Part shown: positions 17,913 to 42,797 of the stretch, in pieces | Numbering within the stretch: position 1 is the stretch's first letter | How the letters are laid out: each line of letters begins with the position of its first letter | Origin: Rhodohalobacter sp. 614A | Lineage (GTDB): Bacteria > Bacteroidota > Rhodothermia > Balneolales > Balneolaceae | Direction of reading: 5' to 3' | DNA: 64,000 bases | Assembly: GCF_021462415.1 (NCBI RefSeq) | Contig: NZ_JAKEDS010000002.1 | Coordinates: 434,001 to 498,000 of the forward strand | Translations under genes and position numbers: made by a program | Notes under the pieces: generated by a model | The model's input: the letters and a program-made list of their open reading frames with translations, nothing else | Databases searched by the model: none | What the model was told of the DNA's origin: nothing

Positions 17913-18605
17913 TCAGTCTTTGTGTATGAATGTGGCCACAAATCCAAATCCGGCAAAGTAAACAAGAGCAATAATTGGTCCCCAATAAAAAACAGAAGGA
18001 TAATCAGGAAAGAACCAAAGTAAGCCCGTCACAGAAATTAAAAATATGGTAGTGACGACAAGTGTTGCGGGCATCCATCTTCGGGTGAGGCTGGGATATG
18101 CAAATTTGATTGGGACAAATTGCATGATCGTAAAAATAACGATGAGAGCCGCGTTGAAACCGGAAGAAAAATCAAAAATAAAAATCAGGTAAAAAGCTAC
18201 CATATTCCACATCACCGGAAAACCTTTGAAATACAGATCGTTGGTTACCATTCCCGCTTTCCCATAGTAAATGGCGGAGGTAAGGACGATGAGTAAAGCC
18301 ATCGCTAAGCCAAGTGAATCGGGCATCAAATCTGCCTGGTAAATCATATAAGCCGGTACAACTGCATATCCGCAAAAATCAATCACAAAATCAATACTTT
18401 TGCCACTCATCGTTGGCAGAATTTCTTCCACTTTGTAACGCCGTGCAAGTGTTCCGTCCAGTCCATCAATAACCTGAGCAGCAAGCAGCCACAACATTGC
18501 TGACCGGAAATCTTTGACTCCTGTCTCGATGAGTGCCATAAAAACGGTAATAATACCACTGGCAGTAAAAATGTGTACAAACCAGGCTTTTAGTCGTGCC
18601 GCCAT
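17913..18605 (-). CDS. pcs: Phosphatidylcholine synthase
   Basis: CDP-alcohol phosphatidyltransferase (230 aa) of the Pcs type: condenses CDP-diacylglycerol with free choline to give phosphatidylcholine in the inner membrane. The family core D-G-L-D-G-T-L-A-R, then S-G-K-S-I-D-F-V-I-D, supplies the metal-binding aspartates. The N-terminal K-A-W-F-V-H-I-F-T-A-S-G and central Y-F-K-G-F-P-V-M-W-N-M-V are typical of Pcs rather than of phosphatidylserine synthase. Seven to eight hydrophobic segments. The gene is divergent from a choline-transporter-like symporter whose start is only about 65 bases away, which supports choline as substrate. Confidence 0.88.
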   Translation of the reverse strand: MAARLKAWFVHIFTASGIITVFMALIETGVKDFRSAMLWLLAAQVIDGLDGTLARRYKVEEILPTMSGKSIDFVIDFCGYAVVPAYMIYQADLMPDSLGLAMALLIVLTSAIYYGKAGMVTNDLYFKGFPVMWNMVAFYLIFIFDFSSGFNAALIVIFTIMQFVPIKFAYPSLTRRWMPATLVVTTIFLISVTGLLWFFPDYPSVFYWGPIIALVYFAGFGFVATFIHKD

Positions 18606-18669
18606 ATCTAAATTGTAATTGATTTAACTGTTATAAGTGTCCGCATATATAACTATTTTTTGCCGTAGT

Positions 18670-20247
18670 ATGAATCATCAAAATATGAAATCCAGGTTAG
18701 GATCAGCAATGCGTCCGGCATTAATGCTGATCGGTCTTCTCCTCCTTGCGGGGCTGTTGATTCATTTTTTTACAGATAATCAGTTAAGCTGGCCGGCTTA
18801 TATCTCGATGATGGTTTTCTATTCTCTGATATTTGGCCTCGGAGCCTATGCTGCACAATTACGCACAGCAAATGATAGCGACAGTTTTCTTCTGGCAGGC
18901 CGCCAACTCCCGCTTCTGCTCGCGGTTTTTACCATGAGTGCCACCTGGGTAGGAGGTGGTTATATTAATGGTACTGCAGAATACACGTACAGTTCCGGGT
19001 TGGTTTGGGTACAGGCTCCATGGGGGTATGCTATGAGCCTGATTATTGGCGGATTATTCTTTGCCAGAAAGATGCGCCGAAAGGGATACCGAACTCTCCT
19101 TGATCCACTTGAAGAAAAGTTTGGGAAACGAATTTCTGCACTTTTTTTCCTTCCGGCTCTTTCGGGAGAGGTGTTTTGGACAGCAGCTATTCTAACGGCA
19201 CTTGGTACTACTTTTGGAGCTATCGCCGGTTTGGATACATCTACAGCTATCATTTTATCGGCTCTCATCACCATTGCTTACACCGCATTGGGTGGACTCT
19301 GGGCCGTTGCTCTTACCGATTTTTTGCAGCTTATTCTTTTGCTTGTCGGACTTTCATTAACGGTTCCTTTTGCTTTGGATGCCGTTGGCGGATGGCCGGC
19401 AGCCTGGGAGCAATATCAAAATACATTTGGTGCAGCTGCCAGTTTTTTTCCATCAAGAGAAGCACTTGGAAATTATTACTGGAATTGGTGGGATTACGCA
19501 CTTTTACTCTGCTTTGGCGGTATTCCGTGGCAAGTCTACTTTCAACGTGTGCTGGCTTCGCGTGATGAAAATACTGCTGTTCGGCTTTCCGTCATTGCCG
19601 GTGTGGTATGTTTGATTGCTGCGGTACCTGCCGTTCTGATTGGAATTGCCGGTCAGACGGCTGATTGGAGTTTGCTGAATGCCCCGGCTCCGCCAGATGC
19701 CGCATCAACCCTTCCGTGGGTAATCCGATACCTGACACCGGGCTGGGTTGGAATTATCGGGCTGGGTGCTGTGACTGCGGCTGTGATGTCTTCAGCAGAT
19801 TCGTCTATTCTTTCCGCTTCATCAATGTCCGGGTGGAATGTCTATCGTCCATTATTCAAACCGAAGATCGACACCAAAAACCTGAGAAAGCTGGTCCAGC
19901 GGATGATCTGGATTATCGGAATTGCAGCCATGCTGATTGCATTGAATATTCAAAGTGTATATGAACTGTGGTTTCTTTGCAGCGATTTCGTTTATTGCCT
20001 GCTGTTTCCGGCGCTGGTTTGTGCACTCTTTGATCCCAAAGCAAATGGTGTAGGTGCTTTAGCCGGTTTTATCGTGGCCGCAATTCTTCGATTTGGCGGG
20101 GGAGATGCAACGCTTGGGATTCCGGTTCTTTTGCCGTATCCAATGATGGAAGATGGGGTTTCACTGTTTCCATTCAGAACATTGGCAATGACCTCCGGAT
20201 TAGTAACCATCATCATCGTTTCCAGAATTCGTTCTTTTTTCCGGTGA
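18670..20247 (+). CDS. Sodium:solute symporter resembling the high-affinity choline transporter (CHT/SLC5A7)
   Basis: About 525 residues with 12-13 membrane helices, sodium:solute symporter fold. Several blocks are close to the animal high-affinity choline transporter: A-T-W-V-G-G-G-Y-I-N-G-T-A-E near residue 90, G-G-I-P-W-Q-V-Y-F-Q-R-V-L, and the A-V-M-S-S-A-D-S-S-I-L-S-A-S-S-M segment. These are recalled similarities, not a search result. Start: a GTG at 18637 would add 11 residues; the ATG at 18670 is preferred, and another ATG lies at 18685. Head-to-head with pcs, so choline import for phosphatidylcholine is the likely job. Ends 3 bases from the convergent LytTR gene. Confidence 0.85.
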   Translation: MNHQNMKSRLGSAMRPALMLIGLLLLAGLLIHFFTDNQLSWPAYISMMVFYSLIFGLGAYAAQLRTANDSDSFLLAGRQLPLLLAVFTMSATWVGGGYINGTAEYTYSSGLVWVQAPWGYAMSLIIGGLFFARKMRRKGYRTLLDPLEEKFGKRISALFFLPALSGEVFWTAAILTALGTTFGAIAGLDTSTAIILSALITIAYTALGGLWAVALTDFLQLILLLVGLSLTVPFALDAVGGWPAAWEQYQNTFGAAASFFPSREALGNYYWNWWDYALLLCFGGIPWQVYFQRVLASRDENTAVRLSVIAGVVCLIAAVPAVLIGIAGQTADWSLLNAPAPPDAASTLPWVIRYLTPGWVGIIGLGAVTAAVMSSADSSILSASSMSGWNVYRPLFKPKIDTKNLRKLVQRMIWIIGIAAMLIALNIQSVYELWFLCSDFVYCLLFPALVCALFDPKANGVGALAGFIVAAILRFGGGDATLGIPVLLPYPMMEDGVSLFPFRTLAMTSGLVTIIIVSRIRSFFR

Positions 20248-20250
20248 GGA

Positions 20251-21003
20251 TTATTTCCCCTCAAGCACGGCAAGTGTACTCGATTTATATGTGCGGCTGA
20301 TCGGCAATTCAGAACCATTCACAGTTACAGAGGTCGTATTAAACGTATCAATATGATTTTGGTTGATAATGTAGGATCGGTGAATCCGGATAAACGTTTC
20401 CGGCAGATTTTCCTCAAAAGACGAAATCGTTTCGCGGGTAGTTAAGATTTGATCTTTTGTGTGAAGCTGAACATAATCACTAAGACTTTCAAGGTAAATG
20501 AGATCGTCCAATTTCACCTGGTGATTGGTTCGGTCTGCCCGAACCGCGATAAACTCCGTTTTCAGGGATTCTTTCTCTTCCATTAATTGCTGCACTTTGA
20601 ATTCATTATTCTTCACCCGCCTGAAGAGGAGGTAAAATGCCTTGATCAATACAATCAGATAAACCGAAAACCCAAGCGCGAATATATTTGTCATCATCGG
20701 GTCCAGTTCGTTGTAATTATAATTTGCGAGAATGATGAACGATATCAAAACCACAATCATCTCTAGGTAAAGAGAAACGATGACGGTGTACATAGTATAG
20801 ATGGAGAACCGAACGTACTTTCGTTCGAGTAAAAATTTTGGTACCAGGTAATAATTGAAAAAGTAAGAAGTGGCCATCGCAACCGGAAGAAGGAAGGTGA
20901 CGAAGTAAAAGCTTTGGGTGTAATTTTCATAGCTGTTTCCAAAGCTGACGACCAGTATGGAACCAGCTAATATCCAAAAAAGTATATGTTTACCTGCGTG
21001 CAT
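20251..21003 (-). CDS. Membrane-bound LytTR-type transcription regulator
   Basis: 250 residues: four hydrophobic helices in the first ~120 residues, a short coiled coil (KNNEFKVQQLMEEKESLKTE) and a LytTR DNA-binding domain at about 150-250, with L-I-Y-L-E-S-L-S-D-Y-V, the T-R-E-T-I-S-S-F-E segment and F-I-R-I-H-R-S-Y-I-I-N. There is no receiver domain, so a signal would be sensed directly through the membrane part. It is divergent from the MotA/ExbB-like gene across a region with large inverted repeats, a plausible target site. Confidence 0.88.
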   Translation of the reverse strand: MHAGKHILFWILAGSILVVSFGNSYENYTQSFYFVTFLLPVAMATSYFFNYYLVPKFLLERKYVRFSIYTMYTVIVSLYLEMIVVLISFIILANYNYNELDPMMTNIFALGFSVYLIVLIKAFYLLFRRVKNNEFKVQQLMEEKESLKTEFIAVRADRTNHQVKLDDLIYLESLSDYVQLHTKDQILTTRETISSFEENLPETFIRIHRSYIINQNHIDTFNTTSVTVNGSELPISRTYKSSTLAVLEGK

Positions 21004-22954: not shown

Positions 22955-24427
22955 ATGCGATTATTTGAAATTTGTATCCTCGTTACTCTTTTTATAACGG
23001 CATGCGGCCATTTCATTAAACCTGAAAAACGGCCGAAAAGCTTGATTTATTTGCCTTTTTTTGTGCTGCTCCTGATTCTCTTGCACCTGCTGATTGAAGG
23101 GTTCAGATGGCAAATAGTGCCGGCTTATTTCCTAACATTGCTGTTTTTAATTCAGTCAGTTCGACTCATCAAACGAAAGCAAAACTTGTTCGTTTATAAC
23201 GACCGAAAATGGCTTCGGATATTGGGTGGAGTTTGTTCAATTCTTCTTTTGATCGTTTCCGGTGTGTTGGTTTCGATACTCCCCGTTTTTGATTTGCCTG
23301 AAGCCACAGGTCCATATACAGTTGGAACGACAACATTTATGCTTGAAGATTCCGATAGGGAAGAGGTCATCACCGGAAATCCCAATGACAATCGAAAGCT
23401 GATGGTACGTGCCTGGTATCCCTCTGATGATCTGTCTTCAAATGTGAAAGAGATGGAATATATGCATCCGTATGAAGCGGAGTATTTTGCAAAGAAATAT
23501 GGATTGCCGGCATTCACGTTGAATCATTTGAGACATGTTGATACAAATGTTTACGAGGATCTGATTGTTTCCGGTCAGGAATCAACATTTCCTGTTCTTC
23601 TTTTCTCTCACGGATACAAGGTTCCGCCGGCCACATATGCATCCTTTTTGAGTGAAATCGCCAGTCACGGCTACATCATTTTTGCAGTCAATTATCCCTA
23701 TCAATCGGTCGCAACGGTTTTCCCCGATGGCAATAAGGTTTCTTTTGATTACCGGTACGAATCCAGAAACTTCGAGAATGTCTGGGAACAGATTGTTGAA
23801 CTCGAAGAGAATTTTTGGGCCGCTGAGAGCGATTCTGCAAAACGGTATATTATTCGCGAAATTTCCAATCTCTATCCCAATGCAGAAATGATGCGGCAAT
23901 GGGCAGTCGACCTCTCTTTTGTGATTGATGAATTGGAAGAGATCAATTCCCAAACCAATAATCGATTTTTTGGCAAACTGAACCTTGACAAGATCGGGGC
24001 GTTTGGCCACTCGGCAGGAGGGGGCACAGCCGGACAACTGATGCTTACTGATTCAAGAGTAAAAGCCGGGATAAATTGGGACGGTGCCCAATGGGCTGAT
24101 ATGATCGACTCAACGCTTACGAAACCATTCTTGAGAATTGAAGCGGTTTACGAACCTACAAAATTTGCCCCGAATGACTTGGTCTTCCACAATGTAAACG
24201 AAGAAGTTCATTACAATGTAAAAGTTGATGGTTTTGGCCATAGCAACTTCAGCGATATTCCTTTGTTGATACCGGTTCAGGCCGTCAACCAGGCGGGAGA
24301 TATGGATCCCATTCGGGCGATTGAATTGATCAACGAATACTCGATCACTTTTTTTGATAAATATCTTCGTGATGATCAGGGAATTGAAGTAACCGATTTG
24401 AATCAAAAATATCCTGAAGTGGAGTAG
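22955..24427 (+). CDS. Alpha/beta hydrolase of the PAF-acetylhydrolase type with N-terminal membrane helices
   Basis: 490 residues. Three to four hydrophobic helices fill the first ~110 residues; the rest is an alpha/beta hydrolase resembling platelet-activating-factor acetylhydrolase isoform II and the dienelactone-hydrolase/PET-hydrolase group. Visible: L-F-S-H-G-Y oxyanion region near 210, the nucleophile elbow G-H-S-A-G-G near 350, and a late H in GFGHSNF as the likely catalytic histidine. It probably acts on esters or lipids at the outer face of the inner membrane. Five bases after the serine hydrolase gene. Confidence 0.83.
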   Translation: MRLFEICILVTLFITACGHFIKPEKRPKSLIYLPFFVLLLILLHLLIEGFRWQIVPAYFLTLLFLIQSVRLIKRKQNLFVYNDRKWLRILGGVCSILLLIVSGVLVSILPVFDLPEATGPYTVGTTTFMLEDSDREEVITGNPNDNRKLMVRAWYPSDDLSSNVKEMEYMHPYEAEYFAKKYGLPAFTLNHLRHVDTNVYEDLIVSGQESTFPVLLFSHGYKVPPATYASFLSEIASHGYIIFAVNYPYQSVATVFPDGNKVSFDYRYESRNFENVWEQIVELEENFWAAESDSAKRYIIREISNLYPNAEMMRQWAVDLSFVIDELEEINSQTNNRFFGKLNLDKIGAFGHSAGGGTAGQLMLTDSRVKAGINWDGAQWADMIDSTLTKPFLRIEAVYEPTKFAPNDLVFHNVNEEVHYNVKVDGFGHSNFSDIPLLIPVQAVNQAGDMDPIRAIELINEYSITFFDKYLRDDQGIEVTDLNQKYPEVE

Positions 24428-40794: not shown

Positions 40795-41091
40795 ATGAAT
40801 GAAAAAGCCAAAGCATACTGGAAAGAAAACCTGAGATTGCTCACCATTCTACTTGTGATATGGTTTCTTGTCTCTTTCGGGTTCGGAATTATATGGGTTG
40901 ATCCGTTAAATACGATTCGATTGGGAGGATTTCAATTAGGTTTCTGGTTCGCTCAGCAAGGCTCTCAGTACGTGTTTGTCATCCTGATTTTTATATATGT
41001 CTACCAAATGAACAAACTGGATAAGAAATTTAAATTCGATGAAGTTGACGACGAACATTCTTCAGATCAGCCTCAAACGGAGGTGCATTAA
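40795..41091 (+). CDS. DUF4212 small subunit of a sodium:solute symporter
   Basis: 98 residues with two membrane helices (about 15-34 and 52-72) and the family pattern K-A-Y-W-K-E-N-L-R-L, I-I-W-V-D-P-L-N, F-W-F-A-Q-Q-G-S-Q-Y-V-F-V. It is always found with the larger symporter protein of the next gene; the stop and start codons share one base (TAATG), giving coupled translation. The role is presumed to be stability or gating of the large subunit. Confidence 0.93.
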   Translation: MNEKAKAYWKENLRLLTILLVIWFLVSFGFGIIWVDPLNTIRLGGFQLGFWFAQQGSQYVFVILIFIYVYQMNKLDKKFKFDEVDDEHSSDQPQTEVH

Positions 41092-42797
41092 TGAGTATTC
41101 AAGTCTGGACCTTCATCATTGTCGGGGTTACGTTTGCGCTATATATTGGGATCGCGGTTTGGTCCCGAGTGGCCTCTACCAGTGATTTTTACATTGCCGG
41201 TGGGCGGGTTCACCCCGTAGCCAATGGCATGGCAACAGCCGCCGACTGGATGTCGGCCGCATCATTTATTTCCATGGCCGGCCTGATTGCTTTTCTCGGT
41301 TATGACGGATCTGTATACCTGATGGGATGGACCGGCGGGTATGTGCTTTTGGCGTTGTTATTAGCCCCATATCTGAGAAAATTCGGAAAATTCACCGTGC
41401 CCGATTTTGTGGGTGACCGATATTATTCAAGCACGGCGCGGGTTGTGGCAATTCTTTGTGCCATCTTTATCTCGTTCACCTATGTAGCCGGGCAGATGCG
41501 GGGCGTTGGTATTGTTTTTTCACGATTTCTGGATGTGGGAATCACAAGCGGTGTTTTGATTGGAATGGTGATCGTTTTCTTCTATGCGGTTTTGGGAGGA
41601 ATGAAAGGGATTACCTACACACAGGTCGCACAATATTGCGTGTTGATATTTGCCTATCTTGTGCCGGTTATTTTTGTCTCGATTTTGATGACCGGAAACC
41701 CGATTCCCCAGCTCGGATTTGGTGGAACGTTGGCTGACGAACCGGGTGTTTTTCTTTTGGACAGGCTGGATGGGTTGATGACTGAACTTGGTTTTACGGC
41801 TTATACGGACGGCACGAAACCTCCAATTGATGTCTTTTTTATAACCGCCGCTCTGATGGTTGGAACTGCCGGACTTCCCCATGTGATCATACGGTTTTTT
41901 ACCGTCCCAAAAGTAAAAGACGCCCGGATTTCTGCCGGATATGCTCTCATTTTTATTGTCGCCCTCTATAGTACCGCACCTGCGGTAGCTGCCTTTGTGA
42001 AAGCAAATTTGATTAACGATATCAGTAATGTTGAATATACCGAAGCGCCCGAATGGTTCCACAACTGGGAGACTACGGGTTTGCTTCAGTTTGAGGATGC
42101 CAACAATGATGGTCGCATTCAATATCACGCCGACCCGGAAATAAACGAATTGACAATTGACCGGGATATTATGGTTCTTGCAAGTCCGGAAATTGCAAAT
42201 CTGCCGAATTGGGTTGTAGGGTTGGTCGCCGCTGGCGGACTGGCAGCAGCACTTTCAACCGCTGCGGGTTTGTTGCTTGTACTCGCTACATCCATAGCCC
42301 ACGATCTTTTCAAACGAACGTTGATTCCCACGATGAAGGAGAAAACGGAGTTGATTGTCGCGCGGGTAACTGTGTTCTTTACGGTTTTAGTGGCCGGGTA
42401 TTTCGGTATTAACCCCCCGGGATTTGTAGCCCAGACTGTAGCCTTTGCATTTGGTCTGGCAGCAGCCTCATTCTTCCCGGCTATTTTGATGGGAATTTTC
42501 TTCAAGCGAATGAATAAGGAGGGCGCAATTGCCGGGATGGCTGCCGGAATTATATTTACGGCTGCTTACATTATTTATTTCACCTTCATCAATCCGGAAC
42601 TCAATAATGTGGATCATTGGTGGTTTGGAATTTCGCCGGAGGGTATCGGGACTTTAGGGATGATTTTAAACTTTGTAGTTGCAATAACAGTCATGAAGTT
42701 CACAAAGAAACCACCTCAGGAAATCCAGGATTTGGTGGAAGATATTCGTATTCCGAGACAAATGAGAGCGTCGGATAAGGAAGATTCTTCTGATTAG
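41091..42797 (+). CDS. Sodium:solute symporter large subunit (VC_2705 family)
   Basis: 568 residues with about 13 membrane helices, sodium:solute symporter fold, partner of DUF4212. Characteristic blocks: D-F-Y-I-A-G-G-R-V-H-P, A-A-D-W-M-S-A-A-S-F-I-S-M-A-G, and G-G-L-A-A-A-L-S-T-A-A-G-L-L-L-V. The family is annotated as transporting acetate or related short acids, but the solute is not certain. A soluble insertion at about 305-365 contains D-A-N-N-D-G-R-I, which looks like a calcium-binding loop. GGAGG lies 7 bases before the ATG. Confidence 0.92.
   Translation: MSIQVWTFIIVGVTFALYIGIAVWSRVASTSDFYIAGGRVHPVANGMATAADWMSAASFISMAGLIAFLGYDGSVYLMGWTGGYVLLALLLAPYLRKFGKFTVPDFVGDRYYSSTARVVAILCAIFISFTYVAGQMRGVGIVFSRFLDVGITSGVLIGMVIVFFYAVLGGMKGITYTQVAQYCVLIFAYLVPVIFVSILMTGNPIPQLGFGGTLADEPGVFLLDRLDGLMTELGFTAYTDGTKPPIDVFFITAALMVGTAGLPHVIIRFFTVPKVKDARISAGYALIFIVALYSTAPAVAAFVKANLINDISNVEYTEAPEWFHNWETTGLLQFEDANNDGRIQYHADPEINELTIDRDIMVLASPEIANLPNWVVGLVAAGGLAAALSTAAGLLLVLATSIAHDLFKRTLIPTMKEKTELIVARVTVFFTVLVAGYFGINPPGFVAQTVAFAFGLAAASFFPAILMGIFFKRMNKEGAIAGMAAGIIFTAAYIIYFTFINPELNNVDHWWFGISPEGIGTLGMILNFVVAITVMKFTKKPPQEIQDLVEDIRIPRQMRASDKEDSSD

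Follow-up and report, generated by a model that had tools for sequence, protein, structure and literature searches.

The window, a stretch of 64,000 nucleotides from the 4.69 Mb, 99% complete genome of Rhodohalobacter sp. 614A, a member of the Balneolaceae, carries two genes in head-to-head orientation. A pcs homologue, recognized by NCBIfam Pcs models, Pfam CDP-OH_P_transf and an alignment of 12 relatives, occupies positions 17913–18605 of the minus strand and is predicted to encode a CDP-diacylglycerol-choline O-phosphatidyltransferase (phosphatidylcholine synthase, Pcs) of 230 aa. It is faced on the plus strand (18670–20247) by a gene whose product, according to its matches to bacterial sfCHT and human CHT1 and to phylogenetic trees, is a predicted CHT-type Na+:choline symporter of the SLC5/SSS family. 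An ORF check returned both reading frames at these coordinates. The longest symporter ORF (536 aa) begins with GTG at 18637, which would leave a gap of 31 bases to pcs, but the ATG at 18670 (525 aa) is invariant across four related pairs and comes after a conserved non-coding block. We therefore preferred a divergent spacer of 64 bases (18606–18669), the presumed site of both promoters, in line with the about 65 bases given in an earlier note on this DNA. The non-coding block, GCATATATAACTATTTTTTGC, spans 21 bases (18643–18663). It is identical in three Rhodohalobacter pairs, despite only 70% Pcs protein identity among them, and shows 2 mismatches in the pair of a Great Salt Lake MAG (L055), compared to a minimum of 7 mismatches in shuffled sequence. 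When searched for in all CHT loci, the block was present in these four closest pairs only and absent from more distant ones. Its conservation suggests that it is a candidate promoter or operator within the spacer. An Rfam search yielded no RNA element, and scans for sigma-70 promoters and terminators gave no more signal than shuffled sequence.

The product of 17913–18605 contains a Pfam CDP-OH_P_transf domain, and its five best NCBIfam matches were all models of phosphatidylcholine synthase (1.9e-47 to 3.3e-38), while PssA matched far more weakly (5e-11). The protein remained below the strict equivalog cut-offs of all five models (162 bits versus a cut-off of 350), as did its Bacteroidota relatives. 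As their names indicate (Agro, Ps, Brdy, Leg, Borr), the models were each built for a single bacterial group, so that these scores exclude membership of those five subfamilies rather than a Pcs enzyme as such. The catalytic motif of CDP-alcohol phosphotransferases, D47-x2-D50-G51-x2-A54-R55-x12-G68-x3-D72-x3-D76, was read from the sequence at 18378–18467 (minus strand), and its residues are invariant or nearly so in the alignment of 12 relatives. Its 12 residues between AR and G match the spacing given for Pcs in a review (PMC3972451). The window protein hence shares the CDP-OH-PT family and a motif of the DX2DGX2ARX12G type with the Pcs enzymes of rhizobia, Agrobacterium, Pseudomonas, Legionella and Borrelia, but differs from them in falling below the curated cut-offs and in belonging to a Bacteroidota branch of the family. 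The earlier assignment to a Pcs-type phosphatidyltransferase was thus borne out by the best family match and by the catalytic spacing, and we infer phosphatidylcholine (PC) to be the product. We also considered a housekeeping PssA, which was ruled out by the weaker match and by a separate PssA encoded elsewhere in the host genome. A second type of Pcs, only about 30% identical, occurs in other Balneolaceae (L041–L050) with no CHT gene beside it; two tested members scored best with the Borrelia and Legionella Pcs models.

The symporter carries a Pfam SSF domain. Its closest solved structures were bacterial sfCHT from Salimicrobium flavidum (PDB 9rws, E = 7e-187) and human CHT1 (SLC5A7; E = 1e-113), followed at a distance by vSGLT (6e-18). 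Sequence identity amounted to 57% with sfCHT in the aligned region and to 45% with human CHT1 over 499 residues. sfCHT (PDB 9rws/9rwt) is a Na+-dependent choline transporter inhibited by hemicholinium-3 (HC-3) (PMC13220886), and we transferred the residue roles from this study to the window protein by alignment (numbering of the 536-aa ORF; all codons on the plus strand). The unwound TM3 segment A102-T103-W104-V105 (18940–18951), which combines Na+-site residues with a choline-site tryptophan, aligns to A97, T98, W99 and V100 of sfCHT and to A60–V63 of the human protein. Further choline-site positions are W181 (19177–19179; sfCHT W176, human W141), W298 in TM8, encoded together with the cytoplasmic gate pair Q303-R304 at 19528–19548 (sfCHT numbers identical), and W445, which also belongs to the extracellular gate (19969–19971; sfCHT W445, human W406). 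The aromatic choline cage (W104, Y131, W181, W298, W445), the Na+ site (A102, T103, V105, Q231) and the gate residues R89, Q303 and R304 are complete and all match sfCHT, and the same Trp/Tyr cage is present in human CHT1. In 14 other SSS proteins, the five aromatic residues were not kept as a set. One difference was found at the cytoplasmic site, where S307 of sfCHT is replaced by alanine, a residue common to about half of the CHTs.

Phylogenetic analysis agreed with these assignments. In an IQ-TREE reconstruction, 43 CHT rows, including sfCHT and human CHT1, were split with 100/100 support from five other SSS proteins (PutP, PanF and three paralogues from the host genome), and FastTree with 14 other SSS proteins recovered the same division. 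The window protein therefore belongs to the CHT/SLC5A7 type; it groups with human CHT1 and sfCHT rather than with symporters for proline, pantothenate or sugars (vSGLT and SGLT1 were compared by score only). The likeness to CHT/SLC5A7 described in the earlier note proved to be real, as judged from the structure matches and the residue alignment, which rule out a mistaken resemblance. PutP and PanF as identities of the symporter were likewise discarded, given that the respective NCBIfam models scored far below cut-off and that the protein lies outside both groups in the trees. Choline specificity and Na+ coupling are predicted from the conserved residues. More than a dozen SSS genes were counted in the host genome (17 matches, with one gene split in two), and another SSS symporter gene outside the CHT clade is located in the window at 41091–42794 (plus strand).

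To what extent the two genes travel together was surveyed at several scales. A scan of genome contigs provided 80 named CHT loci, which without exception belong to Bacteroidota and Balneolota; loci from related genomes were added to these. Pcs was present in 51 of the resulting 90 CHT loci, in 50 of them divergently and mostly with short gaps, a pairing rate that is biased upward because the 80 loci are the best matches to the query; the set also includes a few near-duplicates (L051/L122, L112/L124). Where at least 3 kb of upstream sequence was available, 35 of 62 loci had pcs. It was by far the commonest CHT neighbour, any other family reaching at most about 10 of the 90 loci, and the remaining flanking genes varied from locus to locus. 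An even draw of 150 genomes from one order contained CHT in 16, with Pcs within 1.5 kb in six. These six close loci displayed three gene orders (two divergent, one tandem before, three tandem after), and such variation in how the same two genes are arranged speaks for a functional link and against synteny by descent. Among 394 evenly drawn genomes of the phylum, CHT was detected in seven and Pcs in 25; Pcs occurred in all seven CHT genomes versus 18 of the 387 without CHT (Fisher 1.7e-9, a test that ignores relatedness). Moreover, the distances of paired Pcs and CHT proteins were correlated (Mantel r = 0.66, 0 of 2000 shuffles). The pairing is thus unlikely to be accidental. It is kept in relatives, among them R. 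sulfatireducens (L053), and far beyond, and the situation that would have spoken against the earlier proposal, pcs without CHT in all relatives, was not seen. Balneolaceae with Pcs and without CHT do exist, indicating that CHT is not the sole way to supply Pcs; among the neighbours of stand-alone Pcs genes checked in other Balneolaceae, there was no alternative choline transporter.

Twenty-eight CHT genomes had no adjacent Pcs. Pcs was encoded elsewhere in 20 of them and not found in the remaining eight, of which six carried betA and/or betB next to CHT, one was a contig-end relative of such a locus and one was a Lewinella MAG. The betA/betB route converts choline to betaine. These genes adjoin CHT in Algoriphagus, Echinicola, Marinilabilia, Arenibacter and some Rhodohalobacter, and a plasmid-borne CHT of Priestia megaterium (55% identical) has betB and a gene for an iron-containing alcohol dehydrogenase as neighbours. 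The CHT family is therefore not tied to Pcs alone, and the gene orders imply a choline importer, yet not one dedicated to Pcs. At the same time, the recurrent partners are all choline-consuming enzymes, which lends independent support to choline as the substrate. Together with the fully conserved choline cage, this makes it very improbable that the window symporter carries another quaternary or zwitterionic compound (glycine betaine, carnitine, ethanolamine) and stands beside pcs by coincidence, even though choline is a predicted substrate and S307A alters one residue of the cytoplasmic site.

The betaine-type neighbourhoods bear more directly on the idea of a general choline importer that serves osmoprotection or catabolism via betaine, its place beside pcs being secondary. 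The several genera with CHT beside betA/betB and the Priestia plasmid fit this idea, and osmoadaptation has been proposed for sfCHT (PMC13220886). In the host genome, however, BetA and BetB had no match, so that it lacks this route to betaine; as choline kinase had no match either, Pcs is the only choline sink recognized there. Moreover, the betA-bearing and the pair-bearing Rhodohalobacter are different sets of genomes. We consequently consider a primary role in betaine supply improbable for the window gene and favour the supply of choline to Pcs. A BCCT transporter encoded elsewhere in the host genome could import choline too. BCCT-family genes were also noticed just upstream of CHT genes that lack an adjacent pcs in Neolewinella/Lewinella (L118, L122, L128, L129). 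In Algoriphagus and one Saprospiraceae MAG (L112, L124, L130 and L126), a gene for a small mechanosensitive channel of the MscS type lies divergently beside CHT, fitting an osmotic-stress context.

Within Rhodohalobacter, the pair shows a history of its own. CHT and Pcs of the pair-bearing genomes (the window, G005 and G015) group with those of the Great Salt Lake MAG and of Phaeodactylibacter (Saprospiria), and each of these Rhodohalobacter genomes yielded a single Pcs. Other members of the genus possess a CHT from a different clade (63–64% identical), which in G007, G016 and G019 lies beside betA; their Pcs, encoded elsewhere in the genome, is likewise a different one (28–32% identical). The simplest reading is that the pcs–CHT cassette reached the pair-bearing Rhodohalobacter as a unit by lateral transfer. 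That the closest pairs probably stem from one transfer, grouping with Saprospiria pairs and not with other Rhodohalobacter, could also mean that adjacency reflects nothing but shared ancestry or joint transfer. Against this stand the persistence of the pair while the surrounding genes are scrambled and the existence of several gene orders; in addition, the tree demands at least three changes of the pairing label, which also reappears within a bet clade. We thus give an explanation without functional linkage very little credence.

Functional linkage of the two genes leads to the following model. The CHT-type symporter would take environmental choline into the cell on the Na+ gradient, and the adjacent membrane enzyme Pcs would join it with CDP-diacylglycerol to yield PC and CMP. 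One short divergent spacer could provide a single promoter region that sets both choline uptake and use, and co-regulation of the two genes is accordingly predicted. A compact module producing PC from environmental choline, as the earlier note had proposed, is supported by family membership, functional residues and conserved linkage, and we regard Na+-driven choline import feeding Pcs as very probable, with transport and lipid product deduced from the gene sequences. In some genera of the Balneolaceae, PC is among the major polar lipids (PMC5167729); a literature search for PC in Rhodohalobacter returned nothing useful.

Bacterial CHTs (PMC13220886) and Pcs are each already known, while the papers searched contained no report of a conserved pcs–CHT coupling. 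The structural study of sfCHT from 2026, which gives no gene context, describes the physiological role of CHTs in prokaryotes as unclear (PMC13220886). Here, the window gene is tied to pcs, and gene order offers two concrete roles for bacterial CHTs, with pcs pointing to lipid synthesis and betA/betB to betaine synthesis. As Rhodohalobacter has both contexts in related species, the role is directly testable. In Agrobacterium, Sinorhizobium and Brucella, imported choline feeds Pcs by the ChoXWV–Pcs route (PMC3972451, PMC8371380). ChoXWV is an ATP-driven ABC importer, whereas the window system would represent a single-gene, Na+-driven choline supply adjacent to pcs, in contrast to the ABC importers known in rhizobia and Brucella. 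The arrangement of a choline importer beside choline-using genes also resembles BetT/BCCT with bet operons; BCCT, however, is a separate transporter family, and some CHTs take its place beside betA/betB.

The earlier note had further expected the pair to be informative about the origin of the animal transporter, which found no support. Human CHT1, a neuronal protein that feeds acetylcholine synthesis, formed a long branch with no particular closeness to the window protein; it grouped with the Priestia (Bacillota) sequence at 97/63, which is not robust. Constraining it inside the clade of the window protein was not rejected (AU p = 0.094), a placement neither favoured nor excluded, and the AU tests, which had a single animal sequence and two from Bacillota to draw on, placed human CHT1 neither inside nor outside the Bacteroidota CHTs. 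A wider scenario, in which animal CHT1 arose from within a bacterial CHT radiation already paired with choline-consuming enzymes, and pcs–cht cassettes moved between phylum-level lineages as ready-made choline-to-PC units, would be speculative and is rather unlikely.

Two further genes near the pair were noted. The gene at 20251–21003 (minus strand), directly convergent with the CHT gene, encodes a LytTR DNA-binding protein for which a membrane part is predicted; it is kept in the pair-bearing Rhodohalobacter and is a possible regulator candidate. At 22955–24424 (plus strand), 2.7 kb from the pair, lies a gene whose product contains a platelet-activating-factor acetylhydrolase isoform II domain (PF03403, 5e-22). 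This family acts upon choline phospholipids, and G005 and G015 retain the gene downstream of their pairs.
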